Notes: generated by a model from the letters alone, not told the origin. Counted from the first letter of the stretch, positions 2,100 through 36,997 are shown. The stretch: 36,997 nt of DNA from Bdellovibrionales bacterium GWB1_55_8 (GCA_001769835.1 MEPR01000081.1:40146-77142); one strand, 5' to 3'. Program-made: numbers and translations.

Positions 2100-4642
2100 G
2101 CCACCACTGGGCCAATTCGAAGCAGATGAAGAACCGGCCTGAGCGCCTCACGTGACGACTCAAGATCGAGTTCCAGCTCGACAACCCAGTCGTTATGCGA
2201 TTCCGGGTCAATCATCATCTGATGAATGCTCATCTTTCCGCCCTCGATCGGAGACAGATGAAGATGTTGAGGGGCGCGCGCGACGTTATCGGTTCGAAGG
2301 CGTGAATGCTCCGAGGCGTAATAGCCCTTCATGACGTCATCGAGTTTGTCCCGCGACCAATTCGGATCGTCTCCGACCAGCGCCAGCGCCGCTTCGTAAT
2401 CGCCGGACGCCAGCGCCTTGATGAAGCGGAAGATCTCATTCCTGAGCAATACCTGAAAAGCACGTTTGTTCCGGACAGGATCCGGGAAGCCTTCGCTGAC
2501 CTGCGGCTCCGCGCCGCTGCCCTCACCTGCCGTCACTTCACGCTTCGCGGCGAACGCGGGGTTTCGCATGCGTTCCCATTCTTCAAGAAGGCTCGAATCG
2601 ACGGAACGAACCATGGTCCCGAAGTATGTCTGCATGAGTTCGATCTCATCGTTTTTCGCGTAAGCGGGAACGGTCTGAACCAGCACCTTGTAGAGGTCGA
2701 ATAAATAACGCAGCAGCAGCCCCTCACCGCGATGCAGGTCGTACTCGCGAATGTAATCCGCGAACGAATGATAAAATTCGTACATCTCGCGTCCAATCGA
2801 TTTCGGGCGGATGTTTTCCTGACCTACCCAGGGGTGTTTGGCGGAGAACTCATTGAAAGTGTCGTAGATGAATTCGCGATTCGGTTTCGGATACTCGAGC
2901 TTGTCCAGCTCCTCGATTCGCTCGTCATATTCCACGCCGGCGAATTTCATCTCGGCCATTTTTTCCGTCTTGATGCGATCGAGCTGCTTCCGCAGCACAA
3001 GGTCCGGGTCCTCAAGAATAGATTCCACCAGAGTCAGGGCATCCAGCGCGTAATCAGGGTGTTCCGGATTCAGCAGCTTCAGCGTATCGATGAGATAAAG
3101 CGCCAGAGTCTGATTCAGCGAGAAATCCTCCTGCAGATCGACATTCACCCGCAGCGGATTCAATTCGATGAGCTTTCGATCCACCAGTGACCGGAAAAGC
3201 TGAAACGCGGTCTTCCCGAGGTATTTTCTCGTGCTCGGTCCCTCGTGACATTTTCGGATGATAGTCGCCATCGCACGGCACCCGTCCTCATCCTTCCGGT
3301 CCAGCACCTGAAGCAGCATGGCATGCGAAACCTTGAAACGGGATACGAGCTGCTCGGGTTGGCCATTCACGAGGCGATCGAAGGTCTCGCGATTCCATGG
3401 CACATAACCCTTGTCCGGAGGCTTTCTCTTCACCAGCTTCTTCAACTTCTTGGGATCATCGGCCGCTTTCTGCTCGAGCCTGAGGTTTTCAACCACGTGC
3501 TCGGGCGCTTGCACCACGACCGTACCCTGCTCATCGAAACCCTTGCGTCCGGCGCGTCCGCTGATCTGTTTGAAGTCACGAACGCTGAGAATCGTGGTTT
3601 TCTGGCCGTCAAATTTGCACAGTTTCGTGAAAAGGACGGTACGTATCGGGACATTCACGCCGACCCCCAGGGTATCGGTGCCAAAGATGATCTTAAGGAG
3701 GCCTCTTTGAGCCAGTTTTTCGACGAGCACCCGGTACTTCGGAAGAAGTCCCGCATGATGCAGTCCAAGCCCGTGTTTCAGGAACTTCTGAAACTCCTTG
3801 CCGTAGGGGCTGGAGAACTTGAAGCCTTCAAGAGCTTCCGCTATCGCGCGTTTTTCCTCTTTCGTGCAAAGGTCCACGCTCATGAAATTCTGCGCCTCTT
3901 CCGCGCAACCTCTCTGCGTGAAACTGACGAGATAAATCGGCGCCCGGTTCGCCGCGACAAGTTTCGCCACGGCTTCGTGGACGGGAATCTCGCTGTATTG
4001 AAATTCCAAAGGCACGGGACGCTGCTCGGAACGGACTGTCACGGTCTCTTTGCCGTTAAGTGTAGTGAGTTCCCTCTCGAAAAAAGCGGTCTCGCCAAGC
4101 GTGGCGGACATCAGCAGGAAACGTGATTGCGAAAGTGTGAGAAGAGGTACCTGCCATGCCACTCCCCTGTCGCGATCCGCGTAATAATGAAACTCATCCA
4201 TGATGATGTCGTCAATCGGGGTACGAGCCCCCATTCTAAGCGCATCGTTCGCAAGGATTTCGGCGGTGCAACAAAGAATCGGTGCATCGGGATTCACCGT
4301 GGCATCACCGGTGATCATACCCACCTGATCGGGACCGAAATCCCTGCAAAGCGCCAGAAACTTTTCGTTCACCAGGGCTTTGATCGGGCAGGTATAGATC
4401 GAACGCCGCCCTTGCGCCAGGGACAGAGAATGAAGCCCCGCTGCGACCAGGGATTTCCCGGACCCGGTCGGCGTATTTAAAATGACGTTCTTTCCCGAGA
4501 ATAGCTCGAGCAGTGCCTCTTCCTGCGCGGGGTAAAGCTCAAGACCTTTTTCGCGAACGTATTCGAGGAACCGGTCAAAGACCTGTTCAGAGGAGAGCGA
4601 TGGAAAGTAGAGAGGCCAATTGCCGGGTTCTGCAGGTGACAC
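2096..4642 (-). CDS. DEAD/DEAH-box helicase, Ski2-like DUF3516 family
   Basis: An 848-residue superfamily 2 ATPase. Visible motifs are Walker A TPTGSGKS (57-64), a DEFH box (149-152) in place of DEAH, SATLG (179-183), and motif VI with [15 protein letters not shown] further on. The core sequence, including [16 protein letters not shown], matches the DUF3516 helicases known from actinobacteria and myxobacteria, whose long C-terminal region has no assigned catalytic role. It presumably unwinds RNA or structured nucleic acid in the cytoplasm; the substrate is unknown. The start codon is GTG at 4642. A GGGAG element lies about 16 nt upstream, which is a poor distance, so the exact start is uncertain. 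It is a single gene, convergent with the lipoprotein at 1506 and divergent from the cupredoxin gene. Confidence 0.9.
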
Positions 4643-4739
4643 CGTGAATTAAGTATCACTCCCTGATTTTTTTTGAGAGCGGATTCTGAGGGCACCCCCG
4701 TTGCATGAGCATGTCCCTATTCCAGGAGGCCTGTTTCTC

Positions 4740-5369
4740 ATGCGCAACATAATTCGGAATAGCTTTGCCATCATGTTGACCGGCGCCGTTCTCGGCCTGG
4801 TTTCCTGCGGCGACGATGACGATACACAGCAGATCATCACCCCGTCACCCCAGCCGGCCGCGGTTCCGGAACTCATCATCACGATCCCCGAAGGTGCGAG
4901 CACACTCACAACAGACGCCTATAACCCCAGCTTCGCGCGAGTGAACCCTGAGACCAGGGTAACCTGGGTCAACAATGATTCGGTTGAACACACCGCCACC
5001 GCCGACAATGGTGCCTTTGACACTGGAATCATTCCGCCCGCTGGTCGCGCTTCGATCATAGCAAACACCGCTGGAACGTTCCCTTACCACTGCACGATTC
5101 ATCCGAACATGGTCGGTACATTACAGGTCGGCCAACCTGCGGTGATCGAACCGTCTCCGTCTCCAACGATTTCACCGACCCCAGAACCCAGTCCCAGTCC
5201 CAGTCCAAGTCCGAGTCCGAGTCCGAGCCCGTTTCCATGCGCCGGCGTTCCTGACGGAACCGCCTGTGATGGGGGGTGTCAGCCCTGTACGGCGGGATGT
5301 GACCGAACTGAGGCCCTGGCCTGCTCAGACGGAAGCTGCGGGCCGACACAGTTCACCTGTGTTCCGTAA
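4740..5369 (+). CDS. Cupredoxin-domain lipoprotein with Ser-Pro linker and Cys-rich tail
   Basis: A 209-residue lipoprotein. ATG 4740 follows AGGAGG (4724-4729) with 10-nt spacing and begins a signal peptide ending in lipobox GLVSC, then GDDDD. An upstream in-frame ATG at 4701 would spoil the signal peptide. The plastocyanin/azurin-like domain (about 45-135) keeps a complete type 1 copper set: His84 (VEHTA), Cys118, His121 and Met124 (YHCTIHPNM). A (Ser-Pro)n linker and a short domain with eight Cys follow. The copper domain suggests periplasmic or surface electron transfer or copper handling. The Cys-rich tail is not recognised and may be a small disulfide-bonded anchor or binding module. 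No terminator is obvious before the clostripain gene 63 nt on. Confidence 0.85.
   Translation: MRNIIRNSFAIMLTGAVLGLVSCGDDDDTQQIITPSPQPAAVPELIITIPEGASTLTTDAYNPSFARVNPETRVTWVNNDSVEHTATADNGAFDTGIIPPAGRASIIANTAGTFPYHCTIHPNMVGTLQVGQPAVIEPSPSPTISPTPEPSPSPSPSPSPSPSPFPCAGVPDGTACDGGCQPCTAGCDRTEALACSDGSCGPTQFTCVP
5188..5232 (+). repeat. 6-bp coding tandem repeat for a Ser-Pro linker
   Basis: About seven or eight imperfect copies of AGTCC(C/G/A) encode the Ser-Pro linker of the cupredoxin lipoprotein. Replication slippage could change linker length between strains without breaking the frame. Confidence 0.7.
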
Positions 5370-5432
5370 TTGCCGCAGGTCCTGCGGTCCTGACCGCTCG
5401 CTTCGCCGGAAAAGATCGACTATGCTGCAGTC

Positions 5433-6671
5433 ATGATTGCCAGCTTCCGGTTCTTTCATCCGATCGCGCTTGCTCTCTCCGCGCTCTTGCTCCTTGCTCC
5501 TGAATGGTCAAGGGCAGGGTCTGACGCCCTGGTCCGCTCTGGCCTGAAAGAATGGACATTCCTCACCTACCTGAATGGGAACAATAATCTGGATCCTTAT
5601 GGCGGGATCAATGTCAACCAGATGGAAACGGTCGGCTCCACGGCTCAGGTGAACGTCGTGGTTCAGTGGGCCAGTGAAAGCGCAAAATCGGCCCGCAGAC
5701 TTTACATCACGCGTGACACGGACCGCCGGAAGGTCACCTCACCCGTCCTCCAGGAACTGAAGGGTTTGGACATGGGTGACTGGCGGAATCTCGTCGAGTT
5801 CATTCGCTGGGGTGTCGAGCAATATCCAGCCAAACGCTATTTCGTGAATATCTGGAGCCACGGCACCGGATGGCGCGAGCCCGAAATGCAACAGGTCTTC
5901 GAGACCGGCGTTTCTCCCTTCGATATCAGTCCTGATGACCTGAGCGGAAACGCGATCACCACTCGTCAATTGGGCATGGCGATGACTGAAGCTTCGCGAA
6001 TCATCGGACGAAAGATTGATATTTACGGAAGCGACGCCTGCCTGATGGGAATGCTCGAGATCGCGGCCGAGATGTCTGACTCAGTCGAGTATTTCATTGG
6101 CTCCCAAGCGACTGAACCCGGCGACGGCTGGCCGTATCAGGCATTTCTCTCTCGGTGGACGGCAAAGCCCGATATTGACGCAGCAACCGTTTCGAAACTT
6201 CTCGCGCGAACGTACATTGAAACGTATTCGGGTCCAGACGGCCCCAAGAAAGACGCCACCCTCTCGGCTTTCGATTTGAAGAACATCTCACCCGTCACCA
6301 CTTCTTTGCGCGCGTTTTCCACGACCCTTCAGGACGTTGTTCGGCAGAGCCGGAAAGAGGTTCTTCGCTCGGCACGGTCTTCACTTCAATTCACATTGAC
6401 GGACTATGTGGACCTGGGGGATTTCCTGGCGCACCTGAGGAATTCCGCCGCCTCCGCGCAACTCGAAGCCCATTCCGCCCGGCTTCGCGAGGCGCTTTCA
6501 TCGTTCATCGTGGCGAATCAGGCGACTCCACGTTTTCAGCGGGCCTCAGGAGTTTCCATCTGGATTCCAACGAATCGTGACCTCTGGGATCGGTTTGGCA
6601 GGGAATACGAGCGTCTGAGGTTTCATGCGGACACAGGCTGGGGAACAACTCTTCGGTCTCTTGCTCAATAG
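5433..6671 (+). CDS. Clostripain-like cysteine peptidase (family C11), exported
   Basis: The 412-residue product has an N-terminal signal peptide (about residues 1-28, ending SRAGS) and a family C11 caspase-fold catalytic domain. The N-terminal strand reads WTFLTYLNGNNNLD, as in clostripains. The catalytic His is His143 in WSHGTGW, and the nucleophile is Cys203 in SDACLMGMLEIA. C11 enzymes cleave after Arg or Lys and often self-activate. Here it would act in the periplasm or outside the cell, suiting a proteolytic or predatory lifestyle. ATG 5433 is the only start that keeps the whole signal peptide. It is probably monocistronic; rubrerythrin follows 59 nt later with its own ribosome site. 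Confidence 0.9.
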   Translation: MIASFRFFHPIALALSALLLLAPEWSRAGSDALVRSGLKEWTFLTYLNGNNNLDPYGGINVNQMETVGSTAQVNVVVQWASESAKSARRLYITRDTDRRKVTSPVLQELKGLDMGDWRNLVEFIRWGVEQYPAKRYFVNIWSHGTGWREPEMQQVFETGVSPFDISPDDLSGNAITTRQLGMAMTEASRIIGRKIDIYGSDACLMGMLEIAAEMSDSVEYFIGSQATEPGDGWPYQAFLSRWTAKPDIDAATVSKLLARTYIETYSGPDGPKKDATLSAFDLKNISPVTTSLRAFSTTLQDVVRQSRKEVLRSARSSLQFTLTDYVDLGDFLAHLRNSAASAQLEAHSARLREALSSFIVANQATPRFQRASGVSIWIPTNRDLWDRFGREYERLRFHADTGWGTTLRSLAQ

Positions 6672-32679: not shown

Positions 32680-32755
32680 GTCCCTATCGTCTAGAGGCCT
32701 AGGACACTGCCCTTTCACGGCGGCGACCGGGGTTCGAATCCCCGTGGGGACGCCA
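32680..32755 (+). tRNA. tRNA-Glu, anticodon UUC
   Basis: A complete cloverleaf. The acceptor stem is GTCCCTA (32680-32686) with TGGGGAC (32745-32751), followed by discriminator G and an encoded CCA (32753-32755). The anticodon stem-loop CTGCC-CTTTCAC-GGCGG puts TTC at 32714-32716. The T-arm has GGTTCGAATC. Like many tRNA genes this is a plausible integration site; the gene's 3' end faces the A/T-rich accessory region. Confidence 0.97.
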
Positions 32756-32763
32756 ATAAAAAT

Positions 32764-32794
32764 GCCTGAATCCATTGCGGATTCGGGCTTTTTT
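32764..32794 (+). terminator. Intrinsic terminator of tRNA-Glu
   Basis: GCCTGAATCC (32764-32773) pairs with GGATTCGGGC (32779-32788, one G-U) around a 5-nt loop, followed by six T (32789-32794). Confidence 0.9.
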
Positions 32795-32824
32795 GTTTCT
32801 GGAGATCACACCTAAACAGACCCA

Positions 32825-32846
32825 TGTCGCGCAGGTGTCGCGCGGG
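32825..32846 (+). repeat. 11-bp tandem duplication TGTCGCGCRGG
   Basis: Two adjacent copies of TGTCGCGC(A/G)GG lie about 70 nt beyond the tRNA CCA end, at the switch from G/C-rich to A/T-rich DNA. They may be a recombinase arm-type site or a scar; no function is shown. Confidence 0.4.
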
Positions 32847-32858
32847 CATCACAACCAC

Positions 32859-34013
32859 TCAACGGATCTTCAGTTGTTTTGCCGGTCCAATTGTAGCGAC
32901 GTCAATTATGTCTGAAGAATGAATATACCGTCCCGAAACCTCCACCCTGGTTTCAGAGGTCATAAATTCAAGGATTTCCTCTTCGGTAATCTCCTGCCCA
33001 AACGGCAAACCCTCAAGATCGAGCTGACATTTGACCTGTTTCAGTTGCAGCTTATTTCTAGAATCTAAGTCGATGTTGCGCAGGAAAAAAGTTTCCTCGT
33101 CCATGTCCCACGTTCGAACCAGACCGCAAAGAAGCACATTTGTAGCAAGATCCTCTACTTTCTTAATATGCAATGCTAGTCTTTCGCGAACTTCCTTATT
33201 AACCGCCACGCTTACGTCTACCCGCTTTTCTGTAGATGCGATCACGCCTTTCAATTCTATCGAATCAAAATTGAACACCTTGCTTCGCGGATTCGGCGCA
33301 AGCGAATACATTTCTTGTCGAACAGTAGTAACGACATCCTGATGCACATTGGCAAGATTCGTCTCACTAATGACGTCCTGAATAGTCTCAACTGCTTTTG
33401 CCAAAAGAGGATTGTAGTCCATTGGTTTGAGCTTTAACTCAACACTACCAGGAGCAACCCCAGTCAAAGCCATTAGCGGCGTGGACTGATAGTTCTCCAT
33501 TTCAGGAAGGTGTTTCTTTAGCTCCTTCATGACTTTCTTCAATGAGCGGTGAAAACCAGAAATAACTTTTGTAACAGCGCTTTCCTGAAAACTAGCGGGA
33601 CTAATTCCATCCTTGTTTATCTTAAGGGTTAACTCCGAGACAGGACTCTCCAACCTAACCTCTTCGTCGGGAACGTACTCTTCCGGAATTTCTTCAAACA
33701 TGGATCGTCTTGGACTTCCGACAACCTGATTTTGACCGTTCACAGTCACAAGATATGCGATCAAGGAAAGCTTGAAGAACTCACGGATCGTTACCTGGTC
33801 CTGAGTGAACTTCTCCAACAGGAAATTATTAGTTGGGAAATAGAGCCATGTTGAACTGTTAGCGGCTTGCTCGCAAAAGTAAGCAAGATAGAAGTCATTC
33901 GTTTTCGTAAGAAACGAAAAGATCTTCGGCCCATCATAGTAATCGAACACATCTACAATCCGCGGATTGTCGAAGTAGCCTGGATCATTTGGAAACAAAA
34001 TGCCAGAAGTCAT
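32859..34013 (-). CDS. Unknown 384-aa protein, tentatively with a DUF6575-like N-terminus
   Basis: The N-terminal ~100 residues (VFDYYDGPKIFSFLTK, DFYLAYFCEQ, then TWLYFPTNN) remind me of the uncharacterised DUF6575 domain; I cannot confirm this here. An acidic linker (EEIPEEYVPDEE, about 103-118) follows, then a Lys/Glu-rich helical part and a C-terminal beta-rich region. No catalytic motif, signal peptide or membrane helix is visible. The DNA is more A/T-rich than the chromosome upstream of the tRNA and codon use differs, consistent with transfer. Its ATG overlaps the stop of the 124-aa gene (ATGA, 34010-34013), so the two are translated together. The nature of the activity is unknown. Confidence 0.75.
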   Translation of the reverse strand: MTSGILFPNDPGYFDNPRIVDVFDYYDGPKIFSFLTKTNDFYLAYFCEQAANSSTWLYFPTNNFLLEKFTQDQVTIREFFKLSLIAYLVTVNGQNQVVGSPRRSMFEEIPEEYVPDEEVRLESPVSELTLKINKDGISPASFQESAVTKVISGFHRSLKKVMKELKKHLPEMENYQSTPLMALTGVAPGSVELKLKPMDYNPLLAKAVETIQDVISETNLANVHQDVVTTVRQEMYSLAPNPRSKVFNFDSIELKGVIASTEKRVDVSVAVNKEVRERLALHIKKVEDLATNVLLCGLVRTWDMDEETFFLRNIDLDSRNKLQLKQVKCQLDLEGLPFGQEITEEEILEFMTSETRVEVSGRYIHSSDIIDVATIGPAKQLKIR

Positions 34014-34384
34014 ATTGCTTCCTCCTCTGCGATTTCAGCTACTACACACGGATCTAGACTAACAGGATGCCACCAGTTCACATGCGTTGCCTTATCCTGC
34101 AGCAACACGCCATGTTCTTCCTTAAGCGAAATTTTCGCGATTGCGCCGTCTCCAAACCCTTTCTTGAACCGCCTCATCAACCCCTTAGCCGCTGCAAGCG
34201 TTGTACACAACGACAAAGCCAAATCAGAGCAGACCGGATTAGGTTTCAAACCAAGCCGAGCCTGAGATTGAAAATTTGCCACCTCCACTCGCCCCGATTT
34301 CATAACGCGAAAAAACACCCCATTGCATGGCTTTGCATCAGGCGGAGGGCACTGCGGGAGTTCTGAACCTATATAGTTGGACAT
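34010..34384 (-). CDS. Unknown 124-aa partner of the 384-aa protein
   Basis: A small soluble protein: basic centre (KGLMRRFKKGFGDGAIAKI), then HGVLLQDKATHVNWWHPVSL with two adjacent Trp and three His, then an acidic end (AEIAEEEAI). Four Cys are scattered. No family is recognised. It is the upstream cistron of a pair, overlapping the 384-aa gene by 4 nt. ATG 34384 has no strong ribosome site, so an internal start is possible. Two-gene units of a small and a larger unknown protein next to a tRNA gene are typical of accessory or defence modules, but nothing in the sequence assigns that role. Confidence 0.65.
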   Translation of the reverse strand: MSNYIGSELPQCPPPDAKPCNGVFFRVMKSGRVEVANFQSQARLGLKPNPVCSDLALSLCTTLAAAKGLMRRFKKGFGDGAIAKISLKEEHGVLLQDKATHVNWWHPVSLDPCVVAEIAEEEAI

Positions 34385-35151
34385 TGATCGGCTAGTTCTT
34401 ACCCTAGTCTAACAAGGGAACGGCCTTATCATCATTAGGTATTTTCGACCTATAGCATTCTTTTGCCCGGCATCAAGTGCCTTGCAAATCAAGCCGCTTT
34501 GCGGACAAGAGACAAACGACCGAACTCTGGAGGGGCAGAATTCTTGACGCAAGACATGAATCGATTCACCAGATTCAGTGGCGGATCAATCTTCGCGAGT
34601 CTAGATCGTTTTCCAGAACCAACATGACTGCATTCGATAAAGATACGTTTTGGTAGATCCGCGCGGGTTTGCAACACAGTCCGAAAGGCTCGTCGCGAGC
34701 GGCTCTCAAGGAACCACTTCCAGCCCGCGCGGAATTGCATGGGTAGCGGAACTCATGGGTCAAGTCAAGGCGGCTCAGGTAAGTTCCCGTTCTTACAATA
34801 TCAGGATTATCTCCGCAGATCCGTCCGGTTCGATCCAGCGGGCGCCAGGGTATGCTTTTCAAGACGGTCGATTTCGCCACATTCCTGCACGAATTTACGC
34901 ATATTTGGCACCGAACGAGACACTCGATTCATCAATCATGAGGCAAAGCTCAGTCCTGTGACGTAAAAACCGCCTATCGCTGCCAGAATGGCTAAAGTTC
35001 ACCTGAATCAGGATCCCCTGACGGGAAGCTTCTATTTGGAGTCCCACATGTGTCTGAGGTTCGCCGACCTGATGTAGACACTATATCCCAGTGAACACTT
35101 TGGGTTCATTTCAGGTAATCAGGTGAAATCGGCCAACTTTCTTTTTTAATC
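34385..35151. other. 767-nt stretch without a convincing gene
   Basis: Several short frames are open on both strands (for example minus 34489-34740 and 34575-34880, plus 34650-34961 from TTG), but none has a ribosome site and they exclude each other. The composition is mixed and more G/C-rich than the flanking genes. The right part holds the inverted-repeat unit 34998-35127. It looks like decayed mobile DNA; the promoter of the 124-aa gene should lie at its left end. Confidence 0.5.
34998..35127. repeat. 130-bp unit bounded by 9-bp inverted repeats, possible mobile element remnant
   Basis: TTCACCTGA (34998-35006) and TCAGGTGAA (35119-35127) are perfect inverted repeats; pairing weakens further in. 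No target duplication is visible and no transposase frame lies inside. It could be a non-autonomous element or the end of a degraded insertion sequence. Confidence 0.35.
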
Positions 35152-35469
35152 TTACGAGATTCGCAACGCGTTTCGTTTTGAATCCAGAAACGCTTCGACT
35201 CTGCCTATTTCATCATGTTCGTACTTCCCGAATTCCACCTCCAGCGGCAGATTTACATCAATTTTGCTGAGTGAGGCCAAGTCAACCAGGTTGGCGATTC
35301 TTTTCCCTTCGTCTGCTAGGGATTCGAGAAGTGTGCCAACTCCAGTCATAGCTTCAGCATCTCGATCTCGAGAACCGGTAGATTTGTATCCCAAAAACAG
35401 AAGCCCCAGCCCGTCAATCTTGTACGCCAAATCAGAAAGTTTTCTGTTAATGAAATTCTGGAACGTCAT
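35152..35469 (-). CDS. Unknown 105-aa protein
   Basis: A soluble, mostly helical acidic protein (MTFQNFINRKLSDLAYKIDG at the start, then a Gly-rich turn and a charged C-terminal half with PLEVEFGKYEHDEIGRVEAF). There is no signal peptide or membrane helix, and no family is recognised. A GGGAGA ribosome site precedes ATG 35469 by about 8 nt, and the gene begins 18 nt after the stop of the nuclease-like gene, so they form an operon. As a short partner of a nuclease-like protein it could be an immunity protein, an antitoxin or a subunit; this is inference from position only. Confidence 0.7.
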   Translation of the reverse strand: MTFQNFINRKLSDLAYKIDGLGLLFLGYKSTGSRDRDAEAMTGVGTLLESLADEGKRIANLVDLASLSKIDVNLPLEVEFGKYEHDEIGRVEAFLDSKRNALRIS

Positions 35470-35487
35470 AGATAGATCTCCCTTGTG

Positions 35488-35928
35488 TTAAATAGCCGTA
35501 TCCAGCATCCGAAAGACTTCCTCAGGCGGCTGAACACCCCTGAGGTTATAAAGAAAAGTAACGTACTGGCGTTCATTCATCATTCTGCGATCAGGGAGAG
35601 TTCGCTTAGCGAAGAAGTTCAATGGAACAACTCGGAACCAGGTGAAGTCGTGGGCGTACCTAACGGCGAATACTGGTATTTCCGCACGCTCTCCCATATC
35701 AGCAATAGCAAGGTAGCTCGGGTGCGTGGCAACCTGAGGCTGCGCAAGTTCACCTTTATATTCAAAAATTGCTGAAACTTTCGCCCGATTCATTTCGACG
35801 AGGACTAGGTCCAGATCCATAGCCGGGCATCCCACCCCCCACTGCCGATGGCGCTGACTCAGATTCTGATCTCTCCATCCTGTCCGCTCGGGCCTCGGGA
35901 GGATCTGCTTGCTTCTACGCTCGCCCAT
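35488..35928 (-). CDS. PD-(D/E)XK nuclease-like protein of unknown function
   Basis: A 146-residue protein. The segment GWRDQNLSQRHRQWG is followed by MDLDLVLVEMNRAKVSAIFEYKGE, that is an Asp on one strand, a turn, and E-Y-K on the next. This is the core pattern of PD-(D/E)XK nucleases, here Asp then Glu-x-Lys, with a later basic and aromatic helix region. I recall similar short unknown proteins in other bacteria, but cannot name the family. ATG 35928 is chosen because the extension to 36048 would run through the ATAGCGC repeats and lacks a ribosome site. It is the first cistron before the 105-aa gene and divergent from the RHH gene. Confidence 0.65.
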   Translation of the reverse strand: MGERRSKQILPRPERTGWRDQNLSQRHRQWGVGCPAMDLDLVLVEMNRAKVSAIFEYKGELAQPQVATHPSYLAIADMGERAEIPVFAVRYAHDFTWFRVVPLNFFAKRTLPDRRMMNERQYVTFLYNLRGVQPPEEVFRMLDTAI

Positions 35929-35979
35929 ATTTCTCGTCCGTTCTTGATGATCCAAGCGCGAATCCTGCCTAGGACTTCT

Positions 35980-36038
35980 ATAGCGCAAGTCGTCAATGAC
36001 GGCGTGATAGCGCAATGCGCATACTATTTCAATAGCGC
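35980..36038. promoter_or_regulatory. Three ATAGCGC direct repeats in a divergent promoter region
   Basis: ATAGCGC occurs at 35980-35986, 36007-36013 and 36032-36038, spaced 27 and 25 bp, in the 159-bp gap between the nuclease-like gene and the ribbon-helix-helix gene. The first two extend to ATAGCGCAA. Such evenly phased short repeats are the usual operator type for RHH repressors, and the RHH gene is adjacent. Confidence 0.55.
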
Positions 36039-36087
36039 TGTATGACATTTGTTGTACAGCTCATCGGCCACGCCATAAGCTATTGGA

Positions 36088-36321
36088 ATGCTCAAATTCA
36101 ATATCCCCAACCGAGTGTACTGCCATGGACCCAAGAAACTGGTCTCCTATAGATTTCCAGAGCGGCTGATCAAGGAATTTGAGTCCCTGGCGAAGACAAA
36201 AGGGTGGACGACCACTGACCTCATCACGACGGCTCTTGATCAGTACGTTCAGTGGGATGCGTCACAAACGCCAAAGAAAAAGGGGCAGTCACGAAAACGT
36301 AACCGCGACCAAAACTTTTAG
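36088..36321 (+). CDS. Ribbon-helix-helix (CopG/Arc-like) DNA-binding protein
   Basis: A 77-residue protein. Residues about 17-55 have the RHH pattern: a short strand (KLVSYRFPERL) whose side chains would enter the major groove, helix 1 (IKEFESLAKTKG), a turn, and helix 2 (TTTDLITTALDQYVQ). A strongly basic tail (KKKGQSRKRNRDQ) follows. RHH dimers bind short direct or inverted repeats and often repress their own operon, as in toxin-antitoxin loci. The three ATAGCGC repeats just upstream are likely targets. The ribosome site is weak (TTGGA). A 55-codon frame begins 11 nt after its stop and may be co-expressed. Confidence 0.78.
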   Translation: MLKFNIPNRVYCHGPKKLVSYRFPERLIKEFESLAKTKGWTTTDLITTALDQYVQWDASQTPKKKGQSRKRNRDQNF

Positions 36322-36332
36322 TTATTGAGTCA

Positions 36333-36500
36333 TTGTCGGTCGATGCAAGGGAGGCCAGAGAGAATCTCCAGCCCCCCCAACACCTTAAATTACCTGAAGA
36401 AAATGATTACGATTACGACAATCTGGATAATCATCCCGGGCTCTATTACTATAGACATGACGAACACCTGCCTTTCTGGCGGTACGGGGTTGCCATCTGA
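36333..36500 (+). CDS. Possible 55-aa small protein after the RHH gene
   Basis: An open frame from TTG 36333 to TGA 36498-36500. The product is acidic and aromatic: LKLPEENDYDYDNLDNHPG followed by LYYYRHDEHLPFWRYGVAI, unlike random translation. Its stop lies inside the stem of the terminator at 36486, as expected for the last gene of a transcript. The start is weak: there is no ribosome site and only a TTG. The frame is -1 relative to the RHH gene and stays open back to 36300, overlapping its 3' end, so a frameshifted fusion is an alternative. It competes with an 84-aa frame (36325-36579) that runs past the terminator and looks like a shadow. Confidence 0.4.
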   Translation: MSVDAREARENLQPPQHLKLPEENDYDYDNLDNHPGLYYYRHDEHLPFWRYGVAI

Positions 36501-36519
36501 TCATGGCAGCCCCTTTTTT
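36486..36519 (+). terminator. Intrinsic terminator of the RHH transcript
   Basis: GGGGTTGCCA (36486-36495) pairs with TGGCAGCCCC (36504-36513, one G-U) around an 8-nt loop, followed by six T (36514-36519). Confidence 0.9.
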
Positions 36520-36997
36520 GTTTCAGGGCTATTCCAGCCGCTCCACTGGCCCCTGCTAAAAAACGCAAATTCGATTTAAAACCGCAGCCTCTATATTCAG
36601 TTGTTAAAATTTCAGTCTCCTTTCTGATTTTTCTGAAAATTATTCGTCAAAAAACAGCATCCGCGTGCTCCTGATTTTGCACCAAGCGTTTTTTTCACCT
36701 CCATTGCTTATTATACCCAGCGCTCTCAGTATTCTGGGCTGCGTGCGTGTCTCAGGAACCGCTTTTAAGCGGCCTTTTTAGGCTGACAGCAGCGGCCGTC
36801 GGCTTCAAACGACCGAAATATTTACTGAATATTAAATGGTAGGTTTGAGGAAAAATTCAGAAAACTAACGCGAAAAGGTTGCGCTAGATGCGGACCTGGA
36901 TAGGGAAATCGGCGGTATTCGCTTGATCATGAGACGTGGAGCTCTTGAACGGGGCATTTCTCGTATCCGCTTTCGAGAAACTAAAAGACCCACCATA
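36520..36997. other. A/T-rich end of the window without a supported gene
   Basis: Up to about 36870 the DNA is A/T-rich with stops in all frames. From about 36870 to the edge several frames are open on both strands, so a gene may begin or end there, but none has a ribosome site or recognisable motif. No tRNA-Glu 3'-end repeat or integrase sequence was seen. Confidence 0.5.
36759..36779 (+). terminator. Possible intrinsic terminator
   Basis: The palindrome CCGCTTTTAAGCGG (36759-36772) is followed by CCTTTTT. The loop is very small and no plus-strand gene is clearly upstream. Confidence 0.4.

Follow-up and report, generated by a model that had tools for sequence, protein, structure and literature searches.

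Two described systems are close to the locus analysed here. PICIs, for which a size of 12-15 kb is given, are recognised by an integrase, a replication module and a transcriptional regulator in a conserved layout, by having no structural or lysis genes, and by an att site never used by prophages; helper-phage induction, interference, packaging and orthology to other PICI genes are further marks, and the Gram-negative set is int-alpA-rep-terS (PMC6092414). PD-T4-10 of E. coli consists of a toxin, B, and the antitoxin A that neutralises it, and gives abortive-infection protection against T-even phages (PMC9519451). The locus is probably a complete PICI-like phage satellite that carries a PD-T4-10-like toxin-antitoxin abortive-infection pair as cargo.

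Insertion site and extent of the element

The window, that is, the whole stretch of 36,997 nucleotides analysed, corresponds to C81:40146-77142 of genome G000 (3.78 Mb, 96 contigs) and ends at a 22-base run of N. Contig C81 continues past it for about 7 kb, to 83972. This continuation is numbered as L004 (C81:72600-83972), and a window position equals the L004 position plus 32454. The features in the window are as follows.

32680..32755, plus strand: tRNA-Glu(TTC), integration site, gene intact at attL (ARAGORN; Rfam tRNA 54.9 bits)
32699..32762, plus strand: attL, 64-bp direct repeat whose partner attR lies outside the window, at C81:83177-83240
32764..32788, plus strand: terminator brought by the element
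32825..32842, plus strand: TGTCGCGCAGGTGTCGCG, candidate integrase/Xis arm-type site, with a second copy at L004:10463-10480 near attR
32859..34013, minus strand: B, 384 aa, toxin candidate, with a DUF6575/PD-T4-10_B N-terminal domain and a divergent C-terminal part
34010..34384, minus strand: A, 124 aa, antitoxin candidate, PD-T4-10_A-like
35152..35469, minus strand: 105-aa protein with no family match, adjoining the nuclease-like gene
35488..35928 (full ORF to 36048), minus strand: nuclease-like protein with relatives in phages and a predicted PD-(D/E)XK-like fold
36088..36321, plus strand: divergent RHH regulator, 77 aa (PHROG CopG/Arc-like, 6.5e-6)
36486..36513, plus strand: strong intrinsic terminator after the RHH gene

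The sequence-only reading had placed an integrative element to the right of tRNA-Glu, starting with a change in composition and an 11-bp tandem repeat, and each of these points was borne out. GC is about 55-56% before the end of the tRNA gene and 44-50% directly after it, and GC3 is 0.47-0.62 in the cargo genes versus 0.60-0.67 in ten host genes. The contig extension contains both an integrase and a repeat of the tRNA 3′ end. The two att repeats, each a copy of the 3′ part of tRNA-Glu, are identical at 60 of 64 positions, including all of the last 54 bp; they lie at L004 245-308 and 10578-10641, a spacing of 10,333 bp. The element therefore extends beyond the window, to C81:83240, and a tyrosine integrase of 428 aa (PF00589, 1.1e-27) closes it beside attR. 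The tandem repeat, TGTCGCGCAGG/TGTCGCGCGGG, starts at 32825 and recurs at the other end of the element, about 97 bp inside attR. When TGTCGCGCARRTGTCGCG was searched with at most 3 mismatches, these two places were the only matches, and none of 200 shuffled sequences yielded two. The pattern known from other tyrosine integrases makes the arm-like repeats at both ends candidate arm-type sites.

Comparison of the tRNA-Glu locus in relatives, another step proposed from the sequence, covered wrbA, the tRNA and its terminator, as the relatives' contigs stop before the right-hand gene. In G002, which belongs to the same family but another genus, wrbA-tRNA-terminator formed one unbroken match to the joined G000 flanks, and G006 had a near-identical tRNA-terminator unit. 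In G000 the tRNA's own terminator has ended up beyond attR, and the terminator that now follows the tRNA came with the element. Because the unit is uninterrupted in G002 and its terminator is displaced beyond attR in G000, the site reads as empty in the former and occupied in the latter. By these comparisons, the segment after tRNA-Glu is the tRNA-proximal accessory (cargo) end of a complete integrated element of 10.33 kb.

Conserved synteny throughout the lineage, which would speak against mobility, was not found, because the element genes appear sporadic in the phylum and family. B and the nuclease-like gene each occurred in one of 369 phylum genomes, the replication initiator in two of the 369, and the integrase in one of 35 family genomes; no comparable element was present in the 369. 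A second DUF6575 match in the phylum (G238) fell in an adenylate-cyclase-like protein and was discarded. Single-sequence searches of the genome and viral contigs with B or with the nuclease-like protein returned nothing, and alignments were needed.

The A/B gene pair

The 124-aa and 384-aa genes, taken before as unrecognisable and as part of a possibly undescribed system, proved recognisable by Pfam and PADLOC as PD-T4-10-like. The defence function predicted for the segment thereby gained support for one gene pair, and the idea of an undescribed system held only in part: on sequence grounds, A/B belongs to a described kind of system, as a new variant and not a new kind. A and B are both on the minus strand and overlap by 4 bp (ATGA, 34010-34013). 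B matched DUF6575 (Pfam, 2.3e-12) and PADLOC PD-T4-10_B (2e-11), the latter over residues 25-124 only (profile 25-123 of 353). A matched PD-T4-10_A throughout (4-102, 1.5e-5). The A proteins of relatives matched the same model at 8e-8 to 6e-3, and no other PADLOC model matched them. The pair is filed as PD-T4-10-like because B matches PD-T4-10_B only in its N-terminal part.

The expected co-occurrence across genomes was seen. A and B lie together, in the order A then B, in all four other full-length loci: on a Rhodococcus plasmid, in a Bacillota MAG and in two further genomes. When 338 genomes were searched with the A alignment, A was found in exactly the three genomes holding B and in no others. 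From reading the sequences, the neighbours of the relatives' loci are in part prophage lysis-type genes, and a conjugation coupling protein is also among them. Against HMMs built from the four relatives, A scored 4e-13 and B 1e-19, but B only over residues ~13-151; its C-terminal part scored like shuffled sequence. Because A and the N-terminus of B fit the relatives while the C-terminal parts differ, a constant A/N-terminal unit with changing effectors is suggested.

Two observations were made at related loci. To judge by its sequence, a 723-aa protein upstream of the Rhodococcus pair (L033:1034-3205) may be of the TerD type, with a nuclease-like motif. Two large viral contigs (L040:7977-8943; L041:7977-8937) carry the DUF6575 N-terminal domain as a stand-alone protein of 133-135 aa, without A and followed by a leucine-rich-repeat-like protein.

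A/B is most likely a PD-T4-10-like toxin-antitoxin abortive-infection system. In uninfected cells A would neutralise B; phage infection would free B, and the cell would be stopped before the phage cycle is completed. Judging by conservation only, the DUF6575 domain conserved at the N-terminus of B is probably what A engages, and toxicity would reside in the divergent C-terminal part. The AlphaFold model of B was poor (pLDDT 41) and we make no claim about its fold. Matches to solved structures (B to WD40; A to recoverin and to one zinc-finger fragment) were discarded as unconvincing.

A wider reading can be offered tentatively. A modular toxin-antitoxin family might combine a conserved A and a DUF6575 adaptor with varied C-terminal effectors, and travel on satellites, prophages, plasmids and conjugative elements; the stand-alone viral DUF6575 proteins may be counterparts. 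The effectors would then perhaps be of the E. coli PD-T4-10 type, the PDC-M63B type and the type in this element.

The same stand-alone viral proteins, together with a C-terminal part of B that shows no detectable relationship to the same part of its relatives, would also fit a reading in which A/B is not a toxin-antitoxin pair at all, DUF6575 being a general module in non-toxic functions and A plus B another two-part system; the related candidate PDC-M63AB did not act in defence in the E. coli host from which it comes (PMC12409345). We regard this as rather unlikely, since A and B occurred together in every full-length locus found, as in PD-T4-10, where toxicity and neutralisation were demonstrated (PMC9519451).

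Backbone genes and remaining cargo

From attR inward, the genes are int, a 277-aa protein, AlpA (PF05930, 1.3e-14), a replication initiator (phrog_16167, 4.2e-30), its 188-aa partner, a radical-SAM protein, the terminase small subunit TerS (PF03592, 2.6e-41) and the cargo. This is the PICI layout, int-x-alpA-rep-...-terS-cargo. The backbone forms a single, densely packed operon-like block of intact genes. The initiator resembles phage O proteins in its C-terminal part, and the initiator gene contains iteron-like repeats CACGTGCGTGCATGTG (L004:7508-7695) with four matches, a number reached in none of 200 shuffles; these repeats are a candidate origin, as in the lambda-like origin inside gene O. 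The gene for the 277-aa protein (L004:8313-9146) overlaps the integrase gene by 4 bp, and its product matched no family in any of the libraries.

The scan covered every plausible gene between the att repeats, with a 22-base assembly gap remaining, and found none for a large terminase, a portal, a capsid, a tail or lysis. TerS is the only packaging gene inside the repeats, and a TerL of the phrog_2 family is absent from the whole G000 genome. Neither a relaxase or conjugation gene nor a primase or Stl/Rpr-type repressor was recognised in the element.

The radical-SAM gene, which separates the replication module from terS, lies outside the window (L004:5425-6531 = C81:78024-79130) and is unusual cargo for a satellite. 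Its product has an HMPTM-type zinc ribbon and is closest to the TrsS and tetraether synthase (Tes) models. An identification as viperin was rejected (31 bits against a cut-off of 180); the PADLOC pVip match (1.4e-10) spans the radical-SAM core only.

We call the element PICI-like rather than a PICI because its 10.33 kb is below 12-15 kb. This size, the radical-SAM gene, and the lack of a recognised primase and Stl/Rpr-type repressor count against the satellite reading. As a satellite, it would be induced by a helper phage through an AlpA-type switch and excised by its integrase; replication would start from the origin inside the O-like gene, and TerS would steer the element DNA into helper capsids.

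Every backbone gene is phage-like, and the pair of O-like initiator and partner gene recurs in a true prophage of the same phylum, in G312, beside TerS, TerL, portal and capsid genes. These features also fit the alternative of a lambda-like prophage that decayed to int, alpA, replication genes and terS, losing those for structure, TerL and lysis, and then gained moron-type cargo. The intact and compact backbone, with no broken TerL, portal or tail fragments, the preservation of both att repeats, and the agreement of int-alpA-rep-terS with the PICI set (PMC6092414) make such decay unlikely. In the G312 prophage (L045 = G312:C52:8100-28000), a ParB-methyltransferase was also seen beside TerS/TerL.

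The remaining cargo follows the A/B operon after 767 bp (34385-35151) in which no recognisable gene, Rfam match or phage DNA match was found. The nuclease-like ORF has 186 codons for amino acids; by alignment with relatives, its probable start is M41, giving a protein of ~146 aa. Its relatives are phage genes, with 49% identity in L049 and 41-53% in L050-L053 (all IMG/VR), and 308-aa proteins of Streptomyces phages are related to it in their N-terminal half. D-x-D and E-Y-K are conserved in the short forms. The AF2 model had a pLDDT of 73, and Foldseek matched it to many restriction-endonuclease-like folds (splicing endonuclease, Hjc, RecU, DpnI), but all at E >= 0.003.

Of the five short-form contigs, four were inspected (L049, L050, L051 and L053), and in each a ParB-DPPY DNA methyltransferase gene lies directly upstream of the nuclease-like gene. 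This pair was located at L049:1089-2715 and, in L050, L051 and L053, around 3769-5447; in contigs of the L050 type its two genes overlap by 4 bp. Methyltransferase and PD-(D/E)XK-like gene are possibly a phage-borne restriction-modification-like unit.

The pairing of the nuclease-like and 105-aa genes proposed in the sequence-only reading was not supported: no relative of the 105-aa protein was found beside relatives of the nuclease-like gene, and on this comparison it does not appear to be a conserved partner. That the two genes form a second defence or toxin-antitoxin system is accordingly improbable in our estimate. Their adjacency and the predicted fold with its conserved D-x-D and E-Y-K speak for it; against it, the phage relatives lack the 105-aa gene and mostly follow the methyltransferase instead, and the Foldseek E-values are all >0.001. 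As individual genes, these two, the A/B pair and the divergent RHH gene all stand. The 55-codon frame (36333-36500, TTG start), listed with them as a gene, is unsupported; it runs into the strong terminator at 36486-36513.

That the whole is an ordinary tRNA-integrated genomic island with acquired phage genes, moving without phage particles, would fit the tRNA-Glu site, the integrase and the mixed cargo, and is very improbable given a TerS and a phage initiator with iteron-like repeats, whose use outside a phage-like cycle is not obvious, and no recognised relaxase or conjugation gene.

Comparison with known systems

Like the Gram-negative PICIs (e.g. EcCICFT073; PMC6092414), the element has an integrase at one end, AlpA, its own replication module, the optional terS, accessory genes at the far end and a specific att site, and has no virion or lysis genes. 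It differs in having a lambda O-like initiator and partner gene where PICIs have pri-rep, in its size of 10.3 kb, in the radical-SAM gene between the replication module and terS, and in that no homologous element was found in the host family or phylum. On the satellite reading, the range of PICI-like satellites, here with what looks like a lambda O-like replication module, would extend to a bacterial lineage without another copy in this search.

The nuclease-like gene shares with the phage genes (L049-L053 and the 308-aa Streptomyces phage proteins) the core TGWRD...HRxWG...D-x-D...E-Y-K, at the identities to the short forms given above. This element has no methyltransferase, and the 105-aa gene follows instead.

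Among PADLOC candidates, PDC-M63 is similar in that the C-terminal parts of the four B relatives match PDC-M63B; these models (~309 aa) align from about position 40 onward and do not take in the DUF6575 part. The B of this element has a weak match to PDC-M32A (0.0034, residues 262-315).

With PD-T4-10 (PMC9519451), the pair shares the arrangement of A ahead of an overlapping B, the homology of A to PD-T4-10_A, and that of B to PD-T4-10_B and DUF6575. Compared via profiles, the homology of B is limited to the N-terminal ~125 residues, and the C-terminal two thirds are divergent and unmatched. Here the PD-T4-10-like pair would be satellite cargo, and the split conservation of its B, a constant N-terminal domain and partner with a changing C-terminus, points to which part A may recognise and which part may kill.
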